This document shows, in pieces, positions 12,817 to 62,262 of a DNA stretch of 64,000 nt. The notes under the pieces were generated by a model, which ran no database searches, was not told the DNA's origin, and saw only the letters and a program-made list of their open reading frames with translations. A program made the translations under genes and the position numbers. Each line of letters begins with the position of its first letter. Positions within the stretch are counted from its first letter, which is position 1. The stretch comes from Noviherbaspirillum sp. L7-7A (GTDB lineage Bacteria > Pseudomonadota > Gammaproteobacteria > Burkholderiales > Burkholderiaceae_D), in the NCBI RefSeq assembly GCF_019052805.1, contig NZ_JAHQRJ010000001.1, positions 62,001 to 126,000 of the forward strand. Reading direction: 5' to 3'.

Positions 12817-13269
12817 ATGAAACGTTCTGAAAACAAGTCGCACTGCCCGGTGAATTTTGCGCTGGAGACCTTTGGCGATGCCTGGTCGCTGCTGGTCGTG
12901 CGCGACATCGTGTTCTGGGGCAAGCGCACCTACAAGGAATTCCTGTCGTCGGATGAAGCCATTTCCACCAATGTGCTGGCGGCGCGCCTGGCGCATCTGG
13001 AACAGCGCGGCATCCTGGTGCGCGAGCCGCATGCCAATGACCGCCGGCGCGAGGTCTATACACTGACGGAGAAGGGACTCGGCCTGATTCCGGTCCTCCT
13101 GGAAATGTCGGGCTGGAGCGCCCGCAACGATCCGGACACCACCGCGCCCCAGGCATTCGTCGAAGCGGTGTATGCCGACCGCGCCGCCATGTTCGCAGCG
13201 GTGCAGGACGCGGTGCGGCGCGGCGGCTCGCTGTTCGGGGACGGTGGCCTGCTCAGGCGGCCGGCGTGA
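12817..13269 (+). CDS. HxlR-family transcriptional regulator
   Basis: The product has 150 residues. The N-terminal CPVNFALETFGDAWSLLVVRDI is the HxlR signature, with the conserved Cys in the short N-terminal segment that in some members senses electrophiles or redox. The winged HTH follows (FLSSDEAISTNVLAARLAHLEQRGIL...YTLTEKG). The C-terminal 45 residues extend beyond the core domain. It is divergent from the VOC-YCII pair. Its last 17 bp overlap the end of the convergent MerR-type gene. Confidence 0.9.
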   Translation: MKRSENKSHCPVNFALETFGDAWSLLVVRDIVFWGKRTYKEFLSSDEAISTNVLAARLAHLEQRGILVREPHANDRRREVYTLTEKGLGLIPVLLEMSGWSARNDPDTTAPQAFVEAVYADRAAMFAAVQDAVRRGGSLFGDGGLLRRPA

Positions 13270-14203
13270 TGTCGCCCGTGCTGCCGGTGCGGGCAGCGCG
13301 CCAGGCGGCGAGCGCCTCCTGTGCATGCTGTATCGAGGGAAGTAGTTGTACGCCAGCCTGTGGCTGCAGCCGCTCGACGCCGGCGCCCCCGGCCCAGAGT
13401 TCGACGCTTTCCGGCAGCAGGGCGCGCAGCTGCGCCAGCTGGGGCGCCACCTGGCGTACTGCATAGGCGCCTGAAAACGACAGCGCCACCACATCCGCAT
13501 GCTGTGCCCGCGCCGCCATGGCAATGTCGAACAGCGGCGTCTGAATGCCCAGCGAGACACAGGTGGCGCCGTCCAGCGCCATCAGCGCCTCCACCATCAG
13601 CAGGCCCAGTCCATGCTGCTCCTCGGGCACCGTGGTCAGCACGATGCGCGGGCTGCCGGCCTGCTGCGCCGGCAGGGTGGCGATCGCCTGTCGCAGCAGT
13701 GCCTGCACCTGCTCGGTGTAGAGGTGCTCTTCAAAAATCTCGAATTCACCGCTCATCCAGGCCTCGCCCACTGCCCGGTTCAATGCCGGAAGTGTCTGGA
13801 CCACGAAGTCCTGCAGGCCCTGGCGGAGCATGGCCTGGTTGAGGGCGCTGCGCAGTTGCGGCACGTCGTGGCCTTTCACGAGCGCCAGCAGTTGCTGCGA
13901 CAACGGGTCGGCGGCCATCGGCTGCCGCGCCGGCGCGGCAGCCGCCACGCCCAGGGCCTGCAGTTCTTCCTCGCTGGCAGCCATCAGGCGGCCCGGGCGA
14001 TGGCCCTGGTCCATCAGGCGCTTCAAAAGCCGCAGGCGATCGACCTGGGTGGCAGGGTAGAGCCGCTCGCCATGCGCGTCGCGATCCGGCTTGGGAAAGC
14101 CATAACGCCGTTCCCAGACGCGCAGTATGTCCTTGGACAATCCCGTTTCCCGCTCCGTCGCAGTAATGCCTAGCGCCGGTCGCAGCTGATGTGTAGAACT
14201 CAT
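13253..14203 (-). CDS. MerR-family regulator with B12-binding domain (CarH/LitR-like photoreceptor)
   Basis: The product has 316 residues. A MerR HTH occupies ~10-75 (ITATERETGLSKDILRVWER, RLYPATQVDRLRLLKRL). A helical-bundle plus Rossmann cobalamin module occupies ~100-310. It keeps the CarH signature W-x9-E-H (Trp149, Glu159, His160) and an E-x-H-x2-G motif with the presumed lower axial ligand His197. LGIQTP and WAGGAG follow as expected for a B12 fold. In CarH/LitR proteins adenosylcobalamin binding gives DNA-bound tetramers in the dark and light breaks them. It is divergent from the lipid operon. A perfect palindromic box touches its start codon, so autorepression is likely. Confidence 0.9.
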   Translation of the reverse strand: MSSTHQLRPALGITATERETGLSKDILRVWERRYGFPKPDRDAHGERLYPATQVDRLRLLKRLMDQGHRPGRLMAASEEELQALGVAAAAPARQPMAADPLSQQLLALVKGHDVPQLRSALNQAMLRQGLQDFVVQTLPALNRAVGEAWMSGEFEIFEEHLYTEQVQALLRQAIATLPAQQAGSPRIVLTTVPEEQHGLGLLMVEALMALDGATCVSLGIQTPLFDIAMAARAQHADVVALSFSGAYAVRQVAPQLAQLRALLPESVELWAGGAGVERLQPQAGVQLLPSIQHAQEALAAWRAARTGSTGDITPAA

Positions 14204-14218
14204 TTTGTCCTGGACAAA
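14204..14218. promoter_or_regulatory. LitR/CarH-type operator box 1
   Basis: TTTGTC-CTG-GACAAA is a perfect palindrome directly abutting the start codon of the MerR-type regulator. Part of it (AGGA on the minus strand) also serves as the ribosome site. It lies just upstream of the -35 of the divergent promoter. Regulator binding is inferred. Confidence 0.65.
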
Positions 14219-14221
14219 TTG

Positions 14222-14250
14222 TTGACAAGAAATTGAGGCGTGTCTATATT
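14222..14250 (+). promoter_or_regulatory. Promoter of the lipid-modification operon
   Basis: TTGACA at 14222-14227 and TATATT at 14245-14250 are separated by exactly 17 bp, close to the sigma-70 consensus. The start of transcription would fall near 14257, leaving a leader of about 208 nt that contains boxes 2 and 3. A promoter this strong usually needs a repressor, fitting the boxes around it. Confidence 0.7.
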
Positions 14251-14267
14251 AGCCAGCGTGGGCATGA

Positions 14268-14280
14268 TTGTCCATGACAA
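14268..14280. promoter_or_regulatory. LitR/CarH-type operator box 2
   Basis: TTGTC-CAT-GACAA is a perfect palindrome of the same design as boxes 1 and 3, placed about +11 to +23 relative to the predicted transcription start. A bound tetramer here would block the promoter. Confidence 0.65.
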
Positions 14281-14355
14281 AGAGGTTTCCCGGTTTGCAG
14301 AGTTTTTGCATCCGAATGCTTGCTCCAGCCGTATAACCAATTGAAGATCCGCCGC

Positions 14356-14381
14356 CTTCCATGCTGTCCAGTGCATGGAAG
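14356..14381. repeat. Inverted repeat in the operon leader
   Basis: CTTCCATGC at 14356-14364 and GCATGGAAG at 14373-14381 pair perfectly around an 8-nt loop inside the predicted leader. It could be a transcript hairpin or a separate protein site; no U-tract follows. Confidence 0.5.
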
Positions 14382-14403
14382 CGCAGGGCTATTGTTGCAT
14401 CCT

Positions 14404-14422
14404 GCTTTGTCATGGACAAAGC
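14404..14422. promoter_or_regulatory. LitR/CarH-type operator box 3
   Basis: GCTTTGTC-ATG-GACAAAGC is a perfect 8+3+8 palindrome, the longest of the three boxes, 43 bp before the first operon gene and about 140 bp from box 2. It could act in repression by looping or as a roadblock. Confidence 0.6.
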
Positions 14423-14464
14423 GGGCGAGAAAAAGATGATGATGTGAAAGATAAGGGAGCAGGC

Positions 14465-15838
14465 ATGGAAAATACGATGTCAGGCCAGGCGGTTGACGCC
14501 GGAAACAGGATGGAGGTTGGTCCGACCCGCAGGCGCATAGCGGTCGTGGGCGCCGGCATTTCCGGGCTGGCAAGCGCGTGGCTGCTGTCGCAGCGCTATG
14601 AGGTGACGCTGTACGAGGCGGGCAATTACCTGGGTGGCCATACCAACACGGTGGATGTCACGGTCGACGGCATCAGCCATCCGGTCGACACAGGCTTCCT
14701 GGTATTTAACCACCATACCTATCCAAACCTGACCGCCATGCTGGACCATCTCCAGGTCGACAGCGTGGCAACCGACATGTCTTTTGCGGTCAGCCTCGAC
14801 CAGCCCGACCTGGAATGGGCGGGCAGCAGCCTGGGCACGGTGTTCGGGCAGAAGCGCAACCTGGTGCGGCCGGCTTTCTGGCGCATGCTGGCCGACATCC
14901 TGCGCTTCAACCGCGAAAGCGTGGCCTGGCTGCAGGACCATCCCGAAGGCCGCATGACGCTGCGCGACTTCCTGCGCGCCGGCGGCTATTCCCAAACCTT
15001 CGCCGACTGGTACCTGCTGCCCATGGCAGCCGCCATCTGGTCCTGCCCGGCAGGAGAGATGCTGGACTATCCGCTGGCGACCTTCGTGCGCTTCTGCCGC
15101 AATCACGGCCTGCTGCAGGTGTTCGGCCGGCCGCAGTGGCGCTCCATCGTCGGCGGCGGCAGGGAATATGTGCGCAGGCTGGCGGCCGGCATCGGCCATA
15201 TCCGGCTGGCGACGCCGGTGCGCCAGGTGCGCCGGGTCGAATTCGGCGCGCTGGTGGAAACCGATCATGACTGCCGGCTGTACGACGAGGTGGTGCTGGC
15301 CTGCCACAGCGACCAGGCGCTGGCGCTGCTGGGCGCCGATGCCAGCGCTGAGGAACGCCGCCTGCTGGGCGCGATCTCCTATCAGCCCAATCGCGCCGTG
15401 CTGCATACCGACCCGCGCCTGCTGCCGCGTAACCGGGCGCTCTGGTCAGCCTGGAATTACCAGGCCGCCAGCGATGTGTCGGACGCCGCGCCCGTGGGCG
15501 TGTCCTACCTGCTCAACCGGCTGCAGCCGCTGCCCTTCGACACGCCGGTCATCGTCACCCTGAATCCACGGCGCGAACCGGCTGCCCACACCGTGCTGGC
15601 GGAGTTCGACTATGCCCATCCGCTGTTCGACAGCGCCGCCATCGCGGCGCAGGAAGAGCTGGCGCTGCGCCAGGGGCGTGACGGCATCTGGCTGTGCGGC
15701 GCCTGGAATGGCTATGGCTTTCATGAAGACGGCCTGAAATCGGCGCTGCGGGTAGCCAATGCGCTTGGCTGCCATGCGCCGTGGCAGGCTGACGCCGCCA
15801 CCCAGCCCGCTCAGGCGGAACTGGCGCAGGCGGCATGA
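14465..15838 (+). CDS. FAD-dependent amine-oxidase-type oxidoreductase
   Basis: The product has 457 residues. A dinucleotide-binding motif, VVGAGISGLASA (27-38), is followed by the GGH segment (YLGGHTNTVDV). Near the C-terminus a FAD-closing motif is present (GIWLCGAWNGYGFHEDGLKSA). It belongs to the NAD(P)/FAD amine oxidase-like proteins that sit with DUF1365 and CFA-type methyltransferases. In photosynthetic alphaproteobacteria, related flavoproteins next to a CFA-type enzyme modify fatty acyl chains (furan fatty acid pathway), so a lipid desaturase or oxidase role is inferred. ATG 14465 has AGGGAG upstream. Its stop overlaps the next start by 4 bp. Confidence 0.88.
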   Translation: MENTMSGQAVDAGNRMEVGPTRRRIAVVGAGISGLASAWLLSQRYEVTLYEAGNYLGGHTNTVDVTVDGISHPVDTGFLVFNHHTYPNLTAMLDHLQVDSVATDMSFAVSLDQPDLEWAGSSLGTVFGQKRNLVRPAFWRMLADILRFNRESVAWLQDHPEGRMTLRDFLRAGGYSQTFADWYLLPMAAAIWSCPAGEMLDYPLATFVRFCRNHGLLQVFGRPQWRSIVGGGREYVRRLAAGIGHIRLATPVRQVRRVEFGALVETDHDCRLYDEVVLACHSDQALALLGADASAEERRLLGAISYQPNRAVLHTDPRLLPRNRALWSAWNYQAASDVSDAAPVGVSYLLNRLQPLPFDTPVIVTLNPRREPAAHTVLAEFDYAHPLFDSAAIAAQEELALRQGRDGIWLCGAWNGYGFHEDGLKSALRVANALGCHAPWQADAATQPAQAELAQAA

Positions 15839-16611
15839 AGCCGGCGGCGCGGCTGTTCATGGGGCAGGTGATGCACCGCCGCCTGCGGCCGGTGGTCAAC
15901 CGCTTCGTCTACCCGGTCTGCTTTTGCTTGCTGCCGCTGTCGGCGCTGGAAGCCAGCGCCAACCGGCTGTTCTCCATCAACCGTTTCAACCTGCTGAGCT
16001 TTCATTACGCCGACCACGGCGCCCGCGACGGCAGCCACCCGCTGCCATGGATACGCTCGCTGCTGGCGCAGTCGGGCCTGCATGCCGACGGCGAAATCTG
16101 GCTGCAATGCTTTCCGCGCATGCTGGGCTTCGTGTTCAGTCCGGTCAGCTTCTGGTTCTGCCATGCGGCCGATGGCAAGCCGGTGGCGGTGCTGGCCGAA
16201 GTCAGCAACACCTTCGGCCAGCGCCATCGCTACCTGCTGGCCCATGGCGACGGCAGAGCGCTGGCCGAGGGCGAGACGCTGCAGGCGGCCAAGACCTTCC
16301 ATGTCTCGCCGTTTCTGGCAGTGCAGGGCCACTATCGCTTCCGCTTCTATGCCCGCAGCGTCGACGGCGCGCCGTTCTGGCGGCTGGCCCGCATCGAGCA
16401 TGCCGATGCCGCCGGCGACCTGCTGCATACCGCCGTGTCCGGCGAGGCCGTGGCGCTGGACGCGCCAGGCGTGCTGCGCGCGGCGCTGCGCTATCCCTTC
16501 ATGACGCTCCTGATCGTGCTGCGCATCCACTGGCAGGCATTGAAGCTGTGGTGCAAGGGCGCGCCATTTTTCCGCCAACCTCCTTCTCCGCTCAACGACA
16601 AACAACCATGA
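15835..16611 (+). CDS. DUF1365 family protein
   Basis: The product has 258 residues. DUF1365 features include the N-terminal MGQVMHRRLRPVVNRFVYPV, the central SFWFCHAADGKPVAVLAEVSNTFGQRH split by conserved aromatics, and KTFHVSPFLAVQGHYRFRF. The family has no proven activity but nearly always accompanies a CFA-type methyltransferase and an FAD oxidoreductase, pointing to acyl-chain modification at the membrane. A hydrophobic segment near the C-terminus (PFMTLLIVLRIHWQALKLW) may associate with the membrane. It overlaps both neighbours in ATGA junctions, so translation is coupled. Confidence 0.9.
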   Translation: MKPAARLFMGQVMHRRLRPVVNRFVYPVCFCLLPLSALEASANRLFSINRFNLLSFHYADHGARDGSHPLPWIRSLLAQSGLHADGEIWLQCFPRMLGFVFSPVSFWFCHAADGKPVAVLAEVSNTFGQRHRYLLAHGDGRALAEGETLQAAKTFHVSPFLAVQGHYRFRFYARSVDGAPFWRLARIEHADAAGDLLHTAVSGEAVALDAPGVLRAALRYPFMTLLIVLRIHWQALKLWCKGAPFFRQPPSPLNDKQP

Positions 16612-17837
16612 CCATACCGGAAAACATGCTCAGCCTGCCCGCCGCCATCGGCGCATTGCCGCGTAGTGCCGCCGTGCTGCTGCAGATGCTGGAAAACATC
16701 CGCCACGGCAGGCTGGACATGCGCCTGCCGGATGGCGGGCACTGCTGCTTCGGCGACGAGCAGGCCGGGCCGCATGCGCACATCGAGATCAGCGACTGGC
16801 GGCTGTTCGACGAAGTGCTGGCGCGCGGCGACATCGGCCTGGCCGAGTCCTACATCGCCGGCGACTGGCACAGCCCCGACCTGGCCGCCTTGCTCACGCT
16901 CCTGGCGGGCAACCGCGATGCGCTCGCCCATGCCGTGTACGGCCAATGGTGGCGCCTGCTGGCGGCGCGCCTGCGCCATCTGGTGCGCGACAACAGCCGG
17001 GCCGGTTCGCGCCGCAACATCATGGCCCACTATGACCTGGGCAATGATTTCTACAGCCTCTGGCTCGATCCCACGATGAGCTATTCCAGCGCGCTGTACG
17101 AGGGCGACGCCGCCAGGCCGCTGGCCGAGGCGCAGCTGGCCAAGTACCGCCGCATCCTGCAGCGGCTGGGCGCCGTGCCCGGCCAGCGCATCCTGGAGAT
17201 CGGCTGCGGCTGGGGCGGCTTTGCCGAAGTGGCGGCGCGCGAGGCGGGCGTCGAGGTGGTGGGCGTAACGCTGTCGCCGGCGCAGCTGGCGTATGCGCAG
17301 GACAGGATGCGCCGCGCCGGCCTGGACGGCCAGGTCAAGCTGCTGCTCTGCGACTACCGCGACCTCGGTGGAGAGCAGTTCGACCATATCGTGTCGATTG
17401 AAATGTTCGAGGCGGTGGGCGAGCGCTGGTGGCCTTCCTACTTCAACGCGCTGCAGCGACTGTTGAAGCCAGGCGGCCGCGCCGTGGTGCAGAGCATCAC
17501 CATACGCGACGACCTGTTTGCCCGCTACCGGCGCGGCACCGACTTCATCCAGCAGCATGTTTTCCCCGGCGGCATGCTGCCCAGCCCATCGGCCTTTGCC
17601 GGGCAGGCCAGCCGCGCCGGGCTGGCACTGAGCGACAGCCATGCCTTCGGCCCGGACTATGCGCGCACGCTGGCTGCATGGGCGCAGAGCGTGGAGCAGC
17701 GCTGGACGGAGGTGGCCGCGCTGGGCTTCGACGAGCGCTTCCACCGCATCTGGCGCTTTTACCTGGCCTACTGCGAAGCCGGCTTCAACAGCGGCTGCAC
17801 CGACGTCATGCAGTTCGAGCTGCGGCACGCATCATGA
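16608..17837 (+). CDS. Cyclopropane-fatty-acyl-phospholipid synthase family methyltransferase
   Basis: The product has 409 residues. An N-terminal domain (~1-135) precedes the family motif IMAHYDLGNDFYSLWLDP (138-155) and the SAM-binding loop LEIGCGWGG (196-204). Then come IVSIEMFEAVGE and QQHVFPGGMLPS, both typical of CFA/Mma enzymes. It would transfer a methyl group from SAM to a phospholipid acyl double bond, giving a cyclopropane or, in this operon type, a methylated precursor of furan fatty acids. Which product forms cannot be decided here. The start overlaps the DUF1365 stop (ATGA) and its stop overlaps the next start. Confidence 0.93.
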   Translation: MTIPENMLSLPAAIGALPRSAAVLLQMLENIRHGRLDMRLPDGGHCCFGDEQAGPHAHIEISDWRLFDEVLARGDIGLAESYIAGDWHSPDLAALLTLLAGNRDALAHAVYGQWWRLLAARLRHLVRDNSRAGSRRNIMAHYDLGNDFYSLWLDPTMSYSSALYEGDAARPLAEAQLAKYRRILQRLGAVPGQRILEIGCGWGGFAEVAAREAGVEVVGVTLSPAQLAYAQDRMRRAGLDGQVKLLLCDYRDLGGEQFDHIVSIEMFEAVGERWWPSYFNALQRLLKPGGRAVVQSITIRDDLFARYRRGTDFIQQHVFPGGMLPSPSAFAGQASRAGLALSDSHAFGPDYARTLAAWAQSVEQRWTEVAALGFDERFHRIWRFYLAYCEAGFNSGCTDVMQFELRHAS

Positions 17838-18418
17838 ACGGCTGGCCGGCAGCGGCTGCCATGCGCGCGCAATGGCGTCATGCCGTCACGGCCGCCATCG
17901 CTGCCTGCGCGCTGCTGTGCCCGGCCGGGCCGGCGCTGGCGCTGCCCGATGCCATCCGGGACAACCCCGGCGTTGCGCCGGACGCCTGGAACCGCTGGGG
18001 CAGCGGCGAAATGCGCTGGCTGGGCATTGCCCTCTACCAGGCCACGCTGTATGTGGCCGGCAACGATGCCGGGCAGGCGCCGCTGGCCCTGCGCCTGGAG
18101 TACCGGCGCGACATCCCCGGCACGCGCCTGGTGCAGACGACCATGGAGGAAATGCGCAGGCTGGGCGCCGACCCGGCCCGGCTGCCCGCATGGGAGGCGC
18201 AACTGCAGCGCCTGTTTCCCGATGTGCAGAAGGGCGACACCATTACCGGCGTCCTCATTCCCGGCCTGGGCGTGCGCTTCTTTCATCAGGACCGTCTGCG
18301 TGGCCAACTGACCGATAGCGAATTCGGCCGCTGGTTCTTCGCCATCTGGCTGCATCCAGACAGCCGCAGCCCGGCCTTGCGCAGCCAGTTGCTGCAGCCG
18401 CCGCGAAAGCCCGCATGA
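17834..18418 (+). CDS. Chalcone-isomerase-like periplasmic protein
   Basis: The product has 194 residues with a signal peptide (AAIAACALLCPAGPALALP). The remainder matches the bacterial chalcone-isomerase-like pattern: LGIALYQATLYVAG, LALRLEYRRDIPGTRLVQTTMEEMRRLG, then GDTITGVLIPGLGVRFF. Bacterial members are not flavonoid isomerases as a rule; fatty-acid binding is the usual suggestion, which suits a lipid operon. It overlaps its neighbours by ATGA junctions on both sides. Confidence 0.85.
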   Translation: MNGWPAAAAMRAQWRHAVTAAIAACALLCPAGPALALPDAIRDNPGVAPDAWNRWGSGEMRWLGIALYQATLYVAGNDAGQAPLALRLEYRRDIPGTRLVQTTMEEMRRLGADPARLPAWEAQLQRLFPDVQKGDTITGVLIPGLGVRFFHQDRLRGQLTDSEFGRWFFAIWLHPDSRSPALRSQLLQPPRKPA

Positions 18419-19695
18419 GCGACGCTGCGCCCGGCCTGCGCCAGACGCTGTGCTACGGCGTGCTCGGCCTGCCGGTGGCGATGGCGGCCCTGCCGCTCTA
18501 CGTCCACCTGCCGCAGCGCTATGCGCAGGCCGGACTGTCGCTCGAAATGCTGGGTGCGCTGCTGCTGGCGGCGCGCCTGGCCGATGCCGGCGTCGATCCG
18601 CTGCTGGGCGCCTGGACCGACCGCATGCAACGGCGCGGCCTGCCGCTGGCGCTGGCGCTGGCGATGCTGGCCGGCGGGCTGTTCGGCCTGATGCATCCGC
18701 CGGCGCAGGGCGCCGCCGCCTGGCTCCTGCTGTTCATGCTGCTGACCTTCTTCGGATTCTCGCTGGCCACCATCGTCCATCAAAGCTGGGGCACGGAAGT
18801 CGGCGGCAATGCCGCCGGACGCACCCGCCTGACCGCCAGCCGCGAAGGCTTCGGCCTTCTCGGCATCCTGCTGGCGGCGGCGCTGCCGGGGCTGCTGTCG
18901 GCCGACCTGGCGCGCGGCCTGTCGCTGCTGGCCTGGCTCTATCCGCTGCTGGTGCTCGGCGCTGCGCTGCTGGCCTGGCGCGGTGCGCCGGCGCCGCTGC
19001 GGCGCGCCGCGGTGGCAGCGCCGGCGCCGCTGGCCGCCGGCATGCGCCGGGCATGGCGCAACCCGCGCTTTGCGCGGCTTCTGGCGGTGTTTGCCGTCAA
19101 TGGCATTGCCGGCGCGCTGCCGGCCACGCTGGTGCTGTTCTTCGTTGCCGATGTGCTGCAGGCGCCGCAATGGAGCGGGCCGCTCTTGGCCCTGTATTTC
19201 CTGGCTGGCGCGCTGGGCTTGCCGCTGTGGGTGAGGCTGGCGCGGCGCCTGGGCCGCATGCGCGCCTGGACACTGGGCATGCTGCTGGCGGCGGCGGCCT
19301 TCACCGGCGCGCTTGGCATCGGCGCGGGCGACGTGCGGGCATTCGCCCTGGTGTGCCTGCTGTCGGGCCTGGCGCTCGGCGCCGATCTGGCGCTGCCGGC
19401 GGCGCTGCTGGCCGACATTGCCGATGCCGATGCCGAGGCCGAGACCGGCACGCGGCAGGCACCCAAGGCCGGCGCCTATTTCGGATGGTGGAACCTGGTG
19501 GCCAAGCTCAACCTGGCGCTGGCCGCCGGTATCGCATTGCCGGCACTGGCATGGCTGGGTTACCAGCCCGGCAGCACCGGGCCCAACGCCCGCGCTGCGC
19601 TGATTACCGCTTATTGCCTGTTGCCGCTGCTGCTCAAACTGCTGGCCGCCGCGCTTGCGTGGCGCTGGCGCTCGACCCTGGAGATCCGGACATGA
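18415..19695 (+). CDS. MFS-type transporter (GPH/melibiose-permease-like)
   Basis: The product has 426 residues and appears to have about 12 hydrophobic segments. The N-terminal pattern (CYGVLGLPVAMAALPLYVHLP, then ADAGVDPLLGAWTDRM) is that of MFS_2/GPH transporters, where the DPLLGAWTDR loop follows helix 2. The cargo is unknown; in this operon a lipid or lysolipid is possible, since some MFS_2 proteins (MFSD2A) move lysophospholipids, but that is inference. The start overlaps the preceding stop and the stop overlaps the next start. Confidence 0.88.
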   Translation: MSDAAPGLRQTLCYGVLGLPVAMAALPLYVHLPQRYAQAGLSLEMLGALLLAARLADAGVDPLLGAWTDRMQRRGLPLALALAMLAGGLFGLMHPPAQGAAAWLLLFMLLTFFGFSLATIVHQSWGTEVGGNAAGRTRLTASREGFGLLGILLAAALPGLLSADLARGLSLLAWLYPLLVLGAALLAWRGAPAPLRRAAVAAPAPLAAGMRRAWRNPRFARLLAVFAVNGIAGALPATLVLFFVADVLQAPQWSGPLLALYFLAGALGLPLWVRLARRLGRMRAWTLGMLLAAAAFTGALGIGAGDVRAFALVCLLSGLALGADLALPAALLADIADADAEAETGTRQAPKAGAYFGWWNLVAKLNLALAAGIALPALAWLGYQPGSTGPNARAALITAYCLLPLLLKLLAAALAWRWRSTLEIRT

Positions 19696-20237
19696 AGAAA
19701 CTGCTTGCCATCGCTTCCCTCTGCATGCTGCTGGCCGGCTGCGCCGGCGTGCCGGTGGCGCATTACCAGGCCGCCCAGCCGGTGCTGGACCTGCCGCGCT
19801 ATTTCAACGGCACCGTGGATGGCTGGGGCATGTTCCAGTCGCGCTCGGGCGAAGTCGTCAAGCGCTTCCATGTGGTGATCGAGGCCAGCTGGACCGAGCG
19901 CGACGGCCAGCAGGTGGGCACGCTGGATGAACATTTCAGCTGGTCCGACGGCACCACGTCGCGCCGGGTCTGGACCATCAGCCGCGACGGCGAGCGCGGC
20001 TTCGTCGGCCGCGCCGATGATGTGGTGGGACCGGCGCGCGGCGAGACCGCGGGCAATGCGCTGCACTGGCGCTATGTGCTGGCGCTGCCGGTCGATGGCA
20101 GGGTATGGAATGTGGATGTCGACGACTGGATGTTCCTGTTCGACGAGAAGGTGATGCTGAACCGCTCGGCGGTCAGCAAGTTCGGCATCCATGTCGGCGA
20201 TGTCACGCTGAGCTTCATGAAGCGGCCGGCGCCATGA
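19692..20237 (+). CDS. DUF3833-like lipoprotein
   Basis: The product has 181 residues with signal peptide and lipobox (MLLAGCAG). The mature part, LPRYFNGTVDGWGMFQSRSGEVVKRF, then GTLDEHFSWSDGT and HWRYVLALPVDGRVWNVDVDDWMFLFDE, matches the DUF3833 family found in these light- or stress-induced CFA operons. Probably an outer-membrane-facing lipoprotein taking part in lipid handling. The gene overlaps both neighbours by 4 bp, as throughout the operon. Confidence 0.85.
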   Translation: MKKLLAIASLCMLLAGCAGVPVAHYQAAQPVLDLPRYFNGTVDGWGMFQSRSGEVVKRFHVVIEASWTERDGQQVGTLDEHFSWSDGTTSRRVWTISRDGERGFVGRADDVVGPARGETAGNALHWRYVLALPVDGRVWNVDVDDWMFLFDEKVMLNRSAVSKFGIHVGDVTLSFMKRPAP

Positions 20238-21010
20238 ACCCGGCGATTACGGACTGGCGCGGCAAGCGGGTCTGGCTTATGGGAGCGTCCAGCGGCATCG
20301 GCGCGGCGCTGGCGCGCGAGCTGCTTGCACGTGGCGCAAGGGTGGCGCTGTCGGCGCGCAAGGAAAGCATGCTGCATGAACTCGCCGGCACTGCGCCCGA
20401 CGCGGCCGATGCGCTGGTGCTGCCATGCGACGCTGCCCATCCGGCCAGCCTGGCGCAGGCCTGCGCCTGCGTGATCGACCGCTGGGGCGGCGTCGATGTG
20501 GCGATCTATCTTGCCGCCGACTATCAGCCGATGCGGGCCTGGGAGCTCGACCTTGATGTAGCCAGCCGCATGATCGACATCAACCTGGGCGGCGCCATTG
20601 CCTTTGCCGCCTGCCTCATGCCCTGCCTGCTGCGGCAGGGGCAGGGCCAGCTGGCCTTCGTCGCCAGCGTGGCCGGCTACGGCGGCCTGCCGAAATCCCT
20701 GATCTACGGCCCGACCAAGGCCGCGCTGATCAATTTCGCCGAAACCCTGTACCTGGATTTGGCGCCGAAGGGCATCGGCGTGAGGGTGATCAATCCGGGC
20801 TTCGTCGCCACGCCGCTTACCGCGGGCAACGACTTCTCGATGCCGGCGCTGATCACGCCGGAACAGGCGGCGCAGGCCATACTCAAGGGCTATGCCGGCA
20901 CCGCGTTCGAAATCGATTTCCCGCGCCGCTTCACGCGGCCGATGAAGCTGCTGTCACTCTTGCCGTACCGCTGGTACTTCCCGCTGGTGCGGCGCATTAC
21001 CGGACTGTGA
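20234..21010 (+). CDS. Short-chain dehydrogenase/reductase
   Basis: The product has 258 residues and is a classical SDR: NAD(P) motif GASSGIG near residue 17-23, DINLGGAIAF, and the catalytic Ser...YxxxK (VASVAGYGG, then YGPTKAALINF). The Arg shortly after the first strand suggests NADPH. The C-terminus (RFTRPMKLLSLLPYRWYFPLVRR) is basic and hydrophobic and may bring the enzyme to the membrane. It probably reduces or oxidises an acyl-derived carbonyl made by the operon; the substrate is unknown. Confidence 0.9.
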   Translation: MNPAITDWRGKRVWLMGASSGIGAALARELLARGARVALSARKESMLHELAGTAPDAADALVLPCDAAHPASLAQACACVIDRWGGVDVAIYLAADYQPMRAWELDLDVASRMIDINLGGAIAFAACLMPCLLRQGQGQLAFVASVAGYGGLPKSLIYGPTKAALINFAETLYLDLAPKGIGVRVINPGFVATPLTAGNDFSMPALITPEQAAQAILKGYAGTAFEIDFPRRFTRPMKLLSLLPYRWYFPLVRRITGL

Positions 21011-21021
21011 AGGAAAGAACC

Positions 21022-21465
21022 ATGGATGCCGCGCAGGCGCTGGCCAGGCTGGCCGACTATTTCGAAAGCATGACGCCACAGAGCGTGGACCGCATCGGCG
21101 ACTTCTATGCGCCCAATGCCCGCTTCAAGGACCCGTTCAACGATGTGCGCGGCGTGCCGGCGATCCGGCAGGTGTTTCAGCACATGTTCCGCCAGGTCGG
21201 ACAGCCGCGCTTCATCGTCACGGAACGCATTGGTGGCGAGGTTGGCGACGCCGGCGCGGTGCTGCTCTGGCAGTTTCACTTCCATGCCCGCTTCGGCCTT
21301 CGGGAACGGGCGCAGATCATCCATGGCGCCTCGCATCTGCGCTTCGACGCGGCAGGCCTGGTGGTGCTGCATCGGGATTACTGGGACGCCGCCGAAGAGC
21401 TGTATGCCAAGCTGCCGCTATTGGGAACGCTGATGCGGGCGCTGGCCGGCAAGCTGGCCGCTTGA
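21022..21465 (+). CDS. SnoaL-like (NTF2-fold) protein
   Basis: The product has 147 residues with the NTF2/SnoaL cone fold pattern: LADYFESMTPQSVDRIGDFYAPNARFKDPFNDVRG at the N-terminus and IIHGASHLRFDAAGLVVLHRDYWDAAEELYAKLP toward the end. Family members bind small hydrophobic ligands. It is the last gene of the eight-gene lipid operon. A GTG at 21007 overlaps the SDR stop, but ATG 21022 has AAGGAAAG at the right distance and is preferred. No clear intrinsic terminator follows. Confidence 0.85.
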   Translation: MDAAQALARLADYFESMTPQSVDRIGDFYAPNARFKDPFNDVRGVPAIRQVFQHMFRQVGQPRFIVTERIGGEVGDAGAVLLWQFHFHARFGLRERAQIIHGASHLRFDAAGLVVLHRDYWDAAEELYAKLPLLGTLMRALAGKLAA

Positions 21466-60733: not shown

Positions 60734-62262
60734 TGGCGGACGGCACCGTCCGCATCGACGACATCGTGGCCTGGCTGCGATCGGCGGCGCCATCGGCGCA
60801 GCTGACGTCGGACTCGCGCCTGCTCAATGCAGGCGATGTGTTTTTCGCCTATCCCGGCGACAGCGCCGATGGTCGCAACTATATCGCCGCCGCCCTGCAG
60901 CGCGGCGCCGCCGCGGTGCTGTACGACGATGCCGACGCCTACGCATGGCCTGCCGCGACCGATGTGCCGCATCGCGCCGTCACCGGCCTGAAGCAGCTGG
61001 CCGGCGAGATCGCCGGTGCATGGTATGGCCGGCCGGACAGCCAGATGCAGGTGGTGGCGGTCACCGGCACCAATGGCAAGACTTCCTGCAGCCAGTGGCT
61101 CGGTCGCGCGCTGTCGAAGCAGGGCGAGCCGACGCTGGTGGTGGGCACGCTGGGCACCGGCGTCTATCGCAACGGCATGGCCGGCAGCTTCAGCAGCACC
61201 GGCTACACCACGCCCGACGCAGTACTGCTGCAGCGCCGCCTGGCACAGGCCCGCGTCGGCGGCGCCCGCGCGCTGGCGATCGAGGCCTCGTCCATCGGCC
61301 TCGACCAGGGCCGGCTCAACGGCCTGCATGTCGACATTGCGCTGTTTACCAATTTCACCCGCGACCATCTGGACTATCACGGCGACATGCAGTCCTATGA
61401 GGCGGCCAAGCGCCGCCTGTTCGACTGGCCCGGCCTGCGCCACGCGGTGATCAACCTCGATGACGAGATGGGCCAGCGCCTGGTGGCGCATCTGCGCGAC
61501 CGTCCCGAGGTGAGCGTCGTCGGCTACAGCCTGACCGATGCCGGCGCCGTGCCGGTGCTGCGCGCCAGCGACATCCGCTCCAGCCAGGGCGGCACCGTGT
61601 TTCAGATGAGCACGCCCCAAGGCGCAACCCAGGTTCGCACGCAACTTGTTGGCCAGTTCAATGTCAGTAACGTGCTCGGCATCGCCGGCGTACTGCTGGC
61701 GCGCGGCGCGACGCTGCGTGCGGTGGTGGAATTGCTGGAAGGATTGCAACCGGTGCCGGGCCGCATGCAGCAACTCGGCGGCGCCGAAGCGCCGCTGGTG
61801 GTCATCGACTATGCGCATACGCCCGATGCGCTGACCAAAACCCTCGCCACCCTGCGCGAGGTCGCCCGGCAACGGCATGGCCGGCTGTGGTGTGTATTCG
61901 GTTGCGGCGGCGACCGCGATCCCGGCAAGCGGCCCCAGATGGGTGCGGCCGCCACCGCCGCCGATCACGTGATCGTCACCAGCGACAATCCGCGCGGCGA
62001 AAATCCCGCGGACATCATTGAACAGATTATTGAGGGCATGAAGATTTCCAACGCAATGCACAGCGCGCCGCACGTGATCGAAGACCGTGCGGCCGCCATC
62101 CTTTACGCAGTCAAGCATGCGTCGCGGGCCGACGTGGTGCTGCTGGCCGGCAAGGGCCATGAAACCTACCAGGAAATCAAGGGCCGCAAGCTGCCCTTCC
62201 AGGATGCCGACCATGCCGCGCTGTCGCTGGCGGCCCGGGTGACCATGAAGGGAATGCTGTGA
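60733..62262 (+). CDS. murE: UDP-MurNAc-L-Ala-D-Glu:meso-DAP ligase MurE
   Basis: The product has 509 residues. The ATP site is VTGTNGKTSCSQW, and the DNPR motif (TSDNPRGENPADI) marks meso-diaminopimelate specificity, as expected in Gram-negatives. NFTRDHLDYHGDMQSYEAAK is the second ligase motif. The real start is ATG 60733, one base overlapping the ftsI stop (TAATG); the much longer open frame upstream runs antiparallel in frame with ftsI and is a shadow. The stop overlaps murF. Confidence 0.96.
   Translation: MADGTVRIDDIVAWLRSAAPSAQLTSDSRLLNAGDVFFAYPGDSADGRNYIAAALQRGAAAVLYDDADAYAWPAATDVPHRAVTGLKQLAGEIAGAWYGRPDSQMQVVAVTGTNGKTSCSQWLGRALSKQGEPTLVVGTLGTGVYRNGMAGSFSSTGYTTPDAVLLQRRLAQARVGGARALAIEASSIGLDQGRLNGLHVDIALFTNFTRDHLDYHGDMQSYEAAKRRLFDWPGLRHAVINLDDEMGQRLVAHLRDRPEVSVVGYSLTDAGAVPVLRASDIRSSQGGTVFQMSTPQGATQVRTQLVGQFNVSNVLGIAGVLLARGATLRAVVELLEGLQPVPGRMQQLGGAEAPLVVIDYAHTPDALTKTLATLREVARQRHGRLWCVFGCGGDRDPGKRPQMGAAATAADHVIVTSDNPRGENPADIIEQIIEGMKISNAMHSAPHVIEDRAAAILYAVKHASRADVVLLAGKGHETYQEIKGRKLPFQDADHAALSLAARVTMKGML

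Follow-up and report, generated by a model that had tools for sequence, protein, structure and literature searches.

The window analyzed here is a stretch of 64,000 nucleotides (nt) from Noviherbaspirillum sp. L7-7A (NZ_JAHQRJ010000001.1, positions 62,001 to 126,000; coordinates without a prefix are those of the window). On its minus strand, at 13253..14203, it carries a gene for a 316-residue MerR regulator of the LitR/CarH type, with a helix-turn-helix (HTH), a four-helix B12-binding_2 domain and a Rossmann-type B12-binding domain. An operon of eight genes runs divergently from it, and the first three of these resemble ufaD-ufaO-ufaM. A first-pass annotation of this DNA had placed nine open reading frames here, and all nine were recovered at the same positions. 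The 261-nt gap between the regulator and the first operon gene holds three exact copies of a 13-base-pair (bp) palindrome, TTGTCNNNGACAA. These copies, and a link from the palindrome to a gene for photoactive yellow protein (PYP), had been missed and lie beyond the claims of that annotation.

Candidate operator A (TTGTCCTGGACAA, 14205..14217) is an exact copy, separated by a single base from the start codon of the regulator gene; the -35 element of a predicted sigma70-type operon promoter (TTGACA-N17-TATATT, 14222..14250, plus strand) follows 4 nt after it. Candidate operator B (TTGTCCATGACAA, 14268..14280), also exact, lies 63 bp from operator A and contains the -35 element of the predicted regulator promoter (TGGACA-N17-TAATAT, 14246..14274, minus strand). 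Both promoters were read by eye, and their predicted -10 elements overlap each other. Candidate operator C (TTGTCATGGACAA, 14407..14419), the third exact copy, is located between the predicted promoter and the first gene. Many relatives have sites at the place corresponding to operator A, and exact copies occur at an offset similar to that of operator C in N. soli (L012) and N. pedocola (L035). By eye, TnnACA cores 11 bp apart were seen in operator A plus the adjacent -35, but not in B or C. The consensus of aligned sites was T-TTGTCCWRGACAA-A.

The 5.22-Mb genome contains eight exact copies of the palindrome, three of them in this gap, against six for a reversed-pattern control. One of the five copies outside the gap, on a 0.52-Mb contig (C3:414874), begins 115 bp before a pyp gene (C3:414989-415363; L006 3490-3867). 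This gene, behind the TTGTCCAGGACAA site, is directly followed by one for a p-coumarate:CoA-ligase-type AMP-ligase (L006 3870-5108). The encoded protein matches PYP in the PDB with an E-value of 3.6e-55 over residues 1-125. It retains C69 as well as Y42, E46, T50 and R52, which we take to be chromophore-site positions, and thus has all five of these residues. Cys69 is described as a chromophore-site residue of PYP (PMC12826048). PYP was rare. Among 294 genomes of the family, 16 had a match at a threshold of 1e-20, and an order-wide draw gave three of 399 at 1e-15; both counts include the present genome.

We examined the palindrome at 18 pyp genes, namely 15 of the 16 in the family and three Massilia loci, this genome included. 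A site with at most one mismatch was present within 300 bp upstream of 16 of the 18, and 13 of these were exact. In 200 dinucleotide-shuffled sets of the same regions, the mean was 0.17 of 18 and the maximum was 2. The pyp genes of other genomes played no part in defining the palindrome. A truncated pyp (L107), left out of the 18, had no site, and the count becomes 16 of 19 with it. No site was found at the pyp gene of G071, a genome that is 86% complete and has no regulator match at 1e-45. In four pyp promoters (L092, L095, L097, L099), the site stands just before a TTGAC-type -35 element with a 17-nt spacer, as in the ufa promoter (by eye). The regulator itself was present in 14 of the 16 pyp genomes versus 84 of 278 others (Fisher p = 6.7e-6). 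Separately, another family of the same order yielded four pyp homologues within 3.5 kb (G415:C1:133878-137370; L154-L157), with no palindrome at one mismatch or fewer within 1.5 kb of these copies.

Homologous regulator loci were compared for the best 80 of 368 relatives; many of these loci and of the 18 pyp genes come from related genera, and their counts are not independent events. A site counted as upstream when it lay in the 400 nt preceding the start of the match or at most 29 nt within it. At one mismatch or fewer, the palindrome lay upstream of the regulator in 74 of the 80 loci, and it was exact in 62. Exact copies numbered 79 in the 34 kb upstream of the regulators versus nine in the 1.38 Mb elsewhere, and five of those nine were pyp promoters. 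Adjacent palindromes in relatives (77 pairs) were 63 bp apart in 15 cases and 72-75 bp apart in 40. Because the periodicity was modest and the loci are related, these distances (55 of 77 pairs) are reported as a spacing preference only; helical phasing of the pairs was set aside, with R of 0.68 at 10.5 bp and a best period of 11.2. For background, we used exact-site density over the 80 loci and dinucleotide shuffles of the pyp upstream regions. Eighty segments inside the regulator genes (31 one-mismatch matches) were unsuitable, being conserved coding sequence.

A sharper pattern, TTGTCHWDGACAA, gave 43 exact sites in 16 genomes versus 16 for the reversed control. These genomes comprised 15 of the 16 pyp genomes (all but G086) and G055, and 15 of the 16 carry the regulator, G071 lacking it at the cut-off of 1e-45. 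Twelve sites were at pyp, 12 at regulator promoters, three at fasciclin genes, two at short-chain dehydrogenase (SDR)/lipocalin genes and 14 elsewhere. The pattern showed no excess (10 sites versus 12 for the control) in 16 genomes without a regulator match at 1e-45, sampled from 196 such genomes in the family.

Another factor could bind the palindromes at pyp, for example a second LitR-like MerR protein encoded on C3 near 179109 (L010 823-1809, minus strand). This protein is 48% identical to the regulator over query residues 12-93 and has no B12 domain; it may belong to class III, as described for Burkholderia. Its HTH is similar to that of the regulator and its gene is divergent to a fasciclin-domain gene (L010 2068-2523, plus strand), which would suit such a role. 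However, the 3.2 kb around it contain no palindrome at one mismatch or fewer, and the motif enrichment tracks the B12-type regulator over the 80 loci and is absent in the 16 regulator-negative genomes. We consider it very unlikely that such a factor accounts for the sites at pyp.

In seven genomes, pyp, the ligase, an aromatic amino-acid lyase (present in five of the seven) and the regulator follow one another in this order on one strand. The carriers are the Massilia loci L045, L063 and L064 and four genomes of genus g18 (L159-L162); a Pfam check covered one lyase and one ligase. Each cluster is placed behind two palindromes with at most one mismatch, and all seven regulators retain the Wx9EH and ExHxxG motifs of the B12 site. 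Four whole cluster genomes (G097, G148, G279, G285) had no ufaO match at 1e-10, and six of their seven exact TTGTCHWDGACAA sites were at the pyp-regulator cluster, the seventh being in G148:C11. Because of this, pyp and the regulator look like a self-contained unit.

These clusters bear on a further possibility, that PYP partners the regulator in a light-dependent manner. Once lit, PYP would bind the regulator and prevent or restore its DNA binding, with pyp under feedback control, and a single repressor would receive two light inputs, B12 and PYP. The self-contained clusters without ufaO favour PYP acting on the regulator more than co-regulation alone would, although they are no proof, and the co-occurrence in 14 of 16 pyp genomes points the same way. 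Precedents are the short LOV protein PmSB-LOV, which acts on the class II LitR PmlR2 (PMC9758184), and CarS, which acts on CarA/CarH (PMC8156234). Against this, the palindromes and the linkage are explained by co-regulation alone, the pyp-cluster regulators keep the whole B12 motif set and so need no second sensor, and 84 of 98 regulator genomes have no pyp. The PYP studied here is also not acidic (13 Asp + Glu, 18 Lys + Arg), unlike the DNA mimic CarS, and for this reason the idea that PYP mimics DNA in the manner of CarS was rejected. Overall, a direct partnership seems rather unlikely. A two-photoreceptor circuit, in which LitR represses the holo-PYP genes and lit PYP is a reversible antirepressor or co-regulator of that LitR, is likewise improbable in our view. 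Such a PYP-LitR module would have been inherited as a pyp-ligase-lyase-litR operon in Massilia and its kin, and would be split between loci in Noviherbaspirillum, with furan-lipid synthesis as its output.

The regulator exceeded the Pfam gathering cut-offs for all three domains (PF13411, MerR_1; PF02607, B12-binding_2; PF02310, B12-binding). Its best PDB relative by sequence was Thermus CarH (2.5e-26 over residues 13-298). We utilized AlphaFold2 to predict its structure from a 31-sequence alignment whose first row lacked Met1, and the model had a predicted local distance difference test (pLDDT) score of 88. Foldseek placed Thermus CarH at the top of the PDB matches to this model (5c8e and 5c8d, 4.9e-17 for the best), the first being CarH with adenosyl-B12 (AdoB12) and DNA, and the predicted B12 domain matched 8c73 with a root-mean-square deviation of 2.6-2.8 Å. 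With Wx9EH and ExHxxG intact, these results bear out the CarH/LitR-like assignment of the first-pass annotation. Its further claim that all CarH cobalamin-site residues are kept holds for W149, E159, H160 and H197 but not for Met150, where Thermus CarH has His. W149, E159, H160, E195 and H197 were invariant in all 80 aligned regulators (79 relatives and the window protein; L072 was omitted, its translation stopping at 90 residues). The position after Trp was E, M, A, T, V or R across these sequences and His in none. In Thermus CarH the equivalent residue is His132, which we take to be the upper ligand after photolysis; we do not treat this position as family-defining for LitR/CarH. The genome encodes a cobalamin adenosyltransferase. 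Convergent with the regulator gene is a likely HxlR-type regulator gene (12817-13269, by eye), which overlaps its 3' end by 17 bp.

The regulator might instead use a bound corrinoid to sense B12 supply or some oxidative or other signal, and not light, with the PYP link reflecting a shared stress regulon. The missing His after Trp would be in keeping with this, as would Myxococcus xanthus CarA, which is able to bind B12 but represses without needing it (PMC8156234). Two observations fit a light sensor better: the palindrome also stands at a photoreceptor gene, and the Wx9EH and ExHxxG residues are invariant in 80 of 80 regulators. We regard a regulator blind to light as unlikely.

The eight operon genes are all on the plus strand. 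The first encodes a UfaD-like oxidoreductase of the flavin adenine dinucleotide (FAD)/amine-oxidase fold (14465..15838; PF01593/PF13450); its start is most likely at 14465, because a ribosome-binding-like AAGGGAG precedes this position and operator C lies upstream. It is followed by genes for a UfaO-like DUF1365 protein (15835..16611; PF07103, 1.6e-75) and a UfaM-like S-adenosylmethionine-dependent methyltransferase of the cyclopropane fatty acid (CFA) type (16608..17837; PF02353, CMAS, 6.7e-85), which matched three NCBIfam CFA-synthase models, all under the cut-off. The remaining genes encode a chalcone-isomerase-like protein (17834..18418; PF16036, Chalcone_3, 7.6e-10), an MFS_2 transporter (18415..19695; PF13347, 2.9e-51), a DUF3833 lipoprotein (19692..20237; PF12915, 5.4e-63), an SDR (20234..21010; PF00106, adh_short, 1.2e-36) and a SnoaL_2-like protein (PF12680, 1e-13) that begins at 21007 (GTG) or 21022 (ATG) and ends at 21465. 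At six of the seven junctions, neighbouring genes overlap by 4 bp (ATGA). The last junction, at 21007, reads GTGA; it would be an 11-nt gap if translation in fact begins at the ATG at 21022, which has AAGGAA upstream. Pfam backed every family named in the first-pass annotation, along with its reading of a lipid-modification operon, here of the ufaD/ufaO/ufaM kind, and its remark that almost every junction is ATGA. Its argument from these overlaps to fixed stoichiometry was not upheld, as they suggest only translational coupling.

By analogy, the operon product would be a furan fatty acid. In Rhodobacter sphaeroides, cis-vaccenate is methylated by UfaM (RSP2144), and UfaD (RSP1091) then desaturates the methylated lipid. 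The DUF1365 protein UfaO adds O2-derived oxygen, yielding the furan fatty acid 9M5-FuFA; this lipid is lost when exposed to singlet oxygen and protects against it (PMC7380195). RSP1087-1089 are dispensable for this synthesis. Counted from the ufaD end of that operon, RSP1089 is the third gene; by order and size it is probably the counterpart of the MFS gene, and its deletion left fatty acids unchanged (PMC7380195). The transporter had been put forward as a distinguishing feature that may export or import the modified lipid. An essential transport step finds no support in the RSP1089 deletion, and MFS_2 genes lie in at least 49 of the 80 homologous loci over the flanks examined, so we dropped the idea of a novel lipid exporter.

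The same flanks contained ufaD in at least 65 loci, ufaO in at least 65, ufaM in at least 61 and a photolyase gene in at least one; these counts are lower bounds because several contigs end early. The absence of a photolyase from the operon, noted in the first-pass annotation, was correct but is no special trait, with photolyase found in the examined flanks of one of the 80 loci. A Pfam search found one photolyase in the genome, outside the operon at C1:2397104, and the 13 kb around it held no palindrome copy at one mismatch or fewer. The proposed gene-neighbourhood comparison found the regulator-ufa pairing again in the majority of the 80 nearest loci. It resembles LitR-controlled ufaM loci, which are known in Pseudomonas (PMC9758184, PMC8508746), as had been suggested, and is by itself of an already known type. 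Two neighbours depart from this arrangement. In N. pedocola, a gene for the GTP cyclohydrolase FolE2 (L172 8415-9251, minus strand) replaces the ufa operon divergent from the regulator and the palindromes are kept. In N. suwonense, only a divergent ufaD-like gene was found beside the regulator (L171 10559-11962), and the genome (G015) had no ufaO match.

The gene content, the palindrome and its distribution, the pyp-regulator clusters and the conservation of the B12 site are seen in the sequence. We propose that an AdoB12-type LitR/CarH dark repressor probably controls both furan-lipid synthesis and PYP production. By analogy with LitR/CarH repressors, the regulator would bind the 13-bp palindromes that border or directly adjoin sigma70-type promoters and often come in pairs, with spacings of 63 or 72-75 bp. 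In the dark, the AdoB12-loaded protein would repress its own gene and the divergent ufa operon, which would convert membrane cis-vaccenate into singlet-oxygen-scavenging furan fatty acids. It would also repress unlinked targets, chiefly pyp and the p-coumarate:CoA ligase gene and probably that of a fasciclin lipoprotein. Light would break the Co-C bond of AdoB12 and the repressor would let go, such that the cell makes PYP, a blue-light sensor, together with the protective lipid. Lit PYP may then signal elsewhere or act on the regulator.

Several observations weigh against this proposal. Six of the 80 regulator loci (L025, L030, L045, L063, L064, L090) have no upstream site, although three of the six have the palindrome at pyp instead. 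The pyp gene of G015 has no site although this genome has the regulator. Fourteen of the 43 TTGTCHWDGACAA sites could not be told apart from background, and some of the 10 sites in the regulator-negative genomes look like good copies. The residue after Trp is Met150, not His, and the regulator scored 118.9 bits against the NCBIfam CarH equivalog cut-off of 400; by the narrow NCBI definition it is no CarH equivalog. The conserved element is an inverted palindrome, unlike the CarH operators, described as 11-bp direct repeats (nAnnTnnACAn; PMC8156234). Finally, the UfaD, UfaO and UfaM identities rest on family and gene order.

Copies of the palindrome were also seen at other genes. The fasciclin lipoprotein, a two-domain protein (L002 1803-2729, minus strand), has an exact copy at 2978 (C1:909877), 248 bp upstream, and two related genomes (L143, L146) have exact copies 121 and 40 bp before the listed start of a gene of this kind. 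In two further related genomes (L137, L138), an exact copy lies between divergent SDR and lipocalin genes, a likely further target. Another exact copy (L150 near 3974; G003:C40) stands 28 bp before a heme-NO-binding-like gene (by eye) and may be real or background.

The new part of these findings is the palindrome link to PYP. Literature searches returned no LitR/CarH-PYP link in titles or abstracts, though supplements and subscription papers may hold one. Passages of PMC8582858 and PMC8508746 (PYP and LitR) and of the review PMC9614035 (CarH and PYP) treat the two apart, and a text search of a 2022 paper on the PYP family (PMC9664959) found no MerR, LitR, CarH, cobalamin or Massilia. A December 2025 survey, which covers 984 PYPs and 113 pyp operons, names GGDEF/EAL, histidine kinases, pCL, TAL and BLUF and calls the PYP signalling chain an important gap; in a text search, none of the terms MerR, LitR, cobalamin, Massilia and "transcriptional regulator" occurred in its main text (PMC12826048). 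PYP is among the best-studied photoreceptors, and the palindrome and the seven pyp-litR clusters bear on its control and on a possible partner. Such a regulatory link could help explain how PYP is wired into the cell. It would place two unrelated photochemistries, B12 photolysis and coumarate isomerisation, in one regulatory hierarchy, and the defined palindrome and promoter pair are offered for optogenetic use.

Compared with the LitR/CarH repressors of Thermus thermophilus, Bacillus megaterium and M. xanthus, the system shares the MerR HTH, four-helix and Rossmann B12 domains, the Wx9EH and ExHxxG motifs and an element overlapping sigma70-type promoters. It differs in lying beside lipid genes and ahead of pyp, not by carotenoid genes, in using 13-bp palindromes in spaced pairs instead of 11-bp direct repeats, and in having Met where Thermus CarH has His after Trp. 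The Pseudomonas class II regulators PmlR and PplR likewise belong to the LitR family and stand beside ufaM, FAD oxidoreductase and SDR genes, and a small blue-light sensor of the PAS type is linked to them (PMC9758184). There the sensor is LOV and here it is PYP, the element is TGTACA-N12-TGTACA versus TTGTCNNNGACAA, and the C-terminal domain is 19.3% similar to the Thermus LitR B12 domain, whereas the B12 site is kept here (PMC9758184). The light regulon of Pseudomonas putida PplR includes folE2, ufaM and phrB (PMC8508746), and folE2 is the gene divergent from the regulator in N. pedocola. The ufa genes of R. sphaeroides share the DUF1365 UfaO, the methyltransferase and the oxidoreductase, and further genes occur in the same order with similar sizes (RSP1087-1089, 402/186/245 residues, versus 426/181/258 here; PMC7380195). 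They are linked to ChrR, whereas those here are linked to LitR, with ufaM inside the operon and extra chalcone-like and SnoaL-like genes (PMC7380195). The pyp-pCL-TAL operon of Halorhodospira halophila also has PYP followed by a CoA ligase, with a lyase as in five of our seven clusters, but in the present lineage LitR-type palindromes stand in front and, in seven genomes, a LitR gene follows (PMC12826048).

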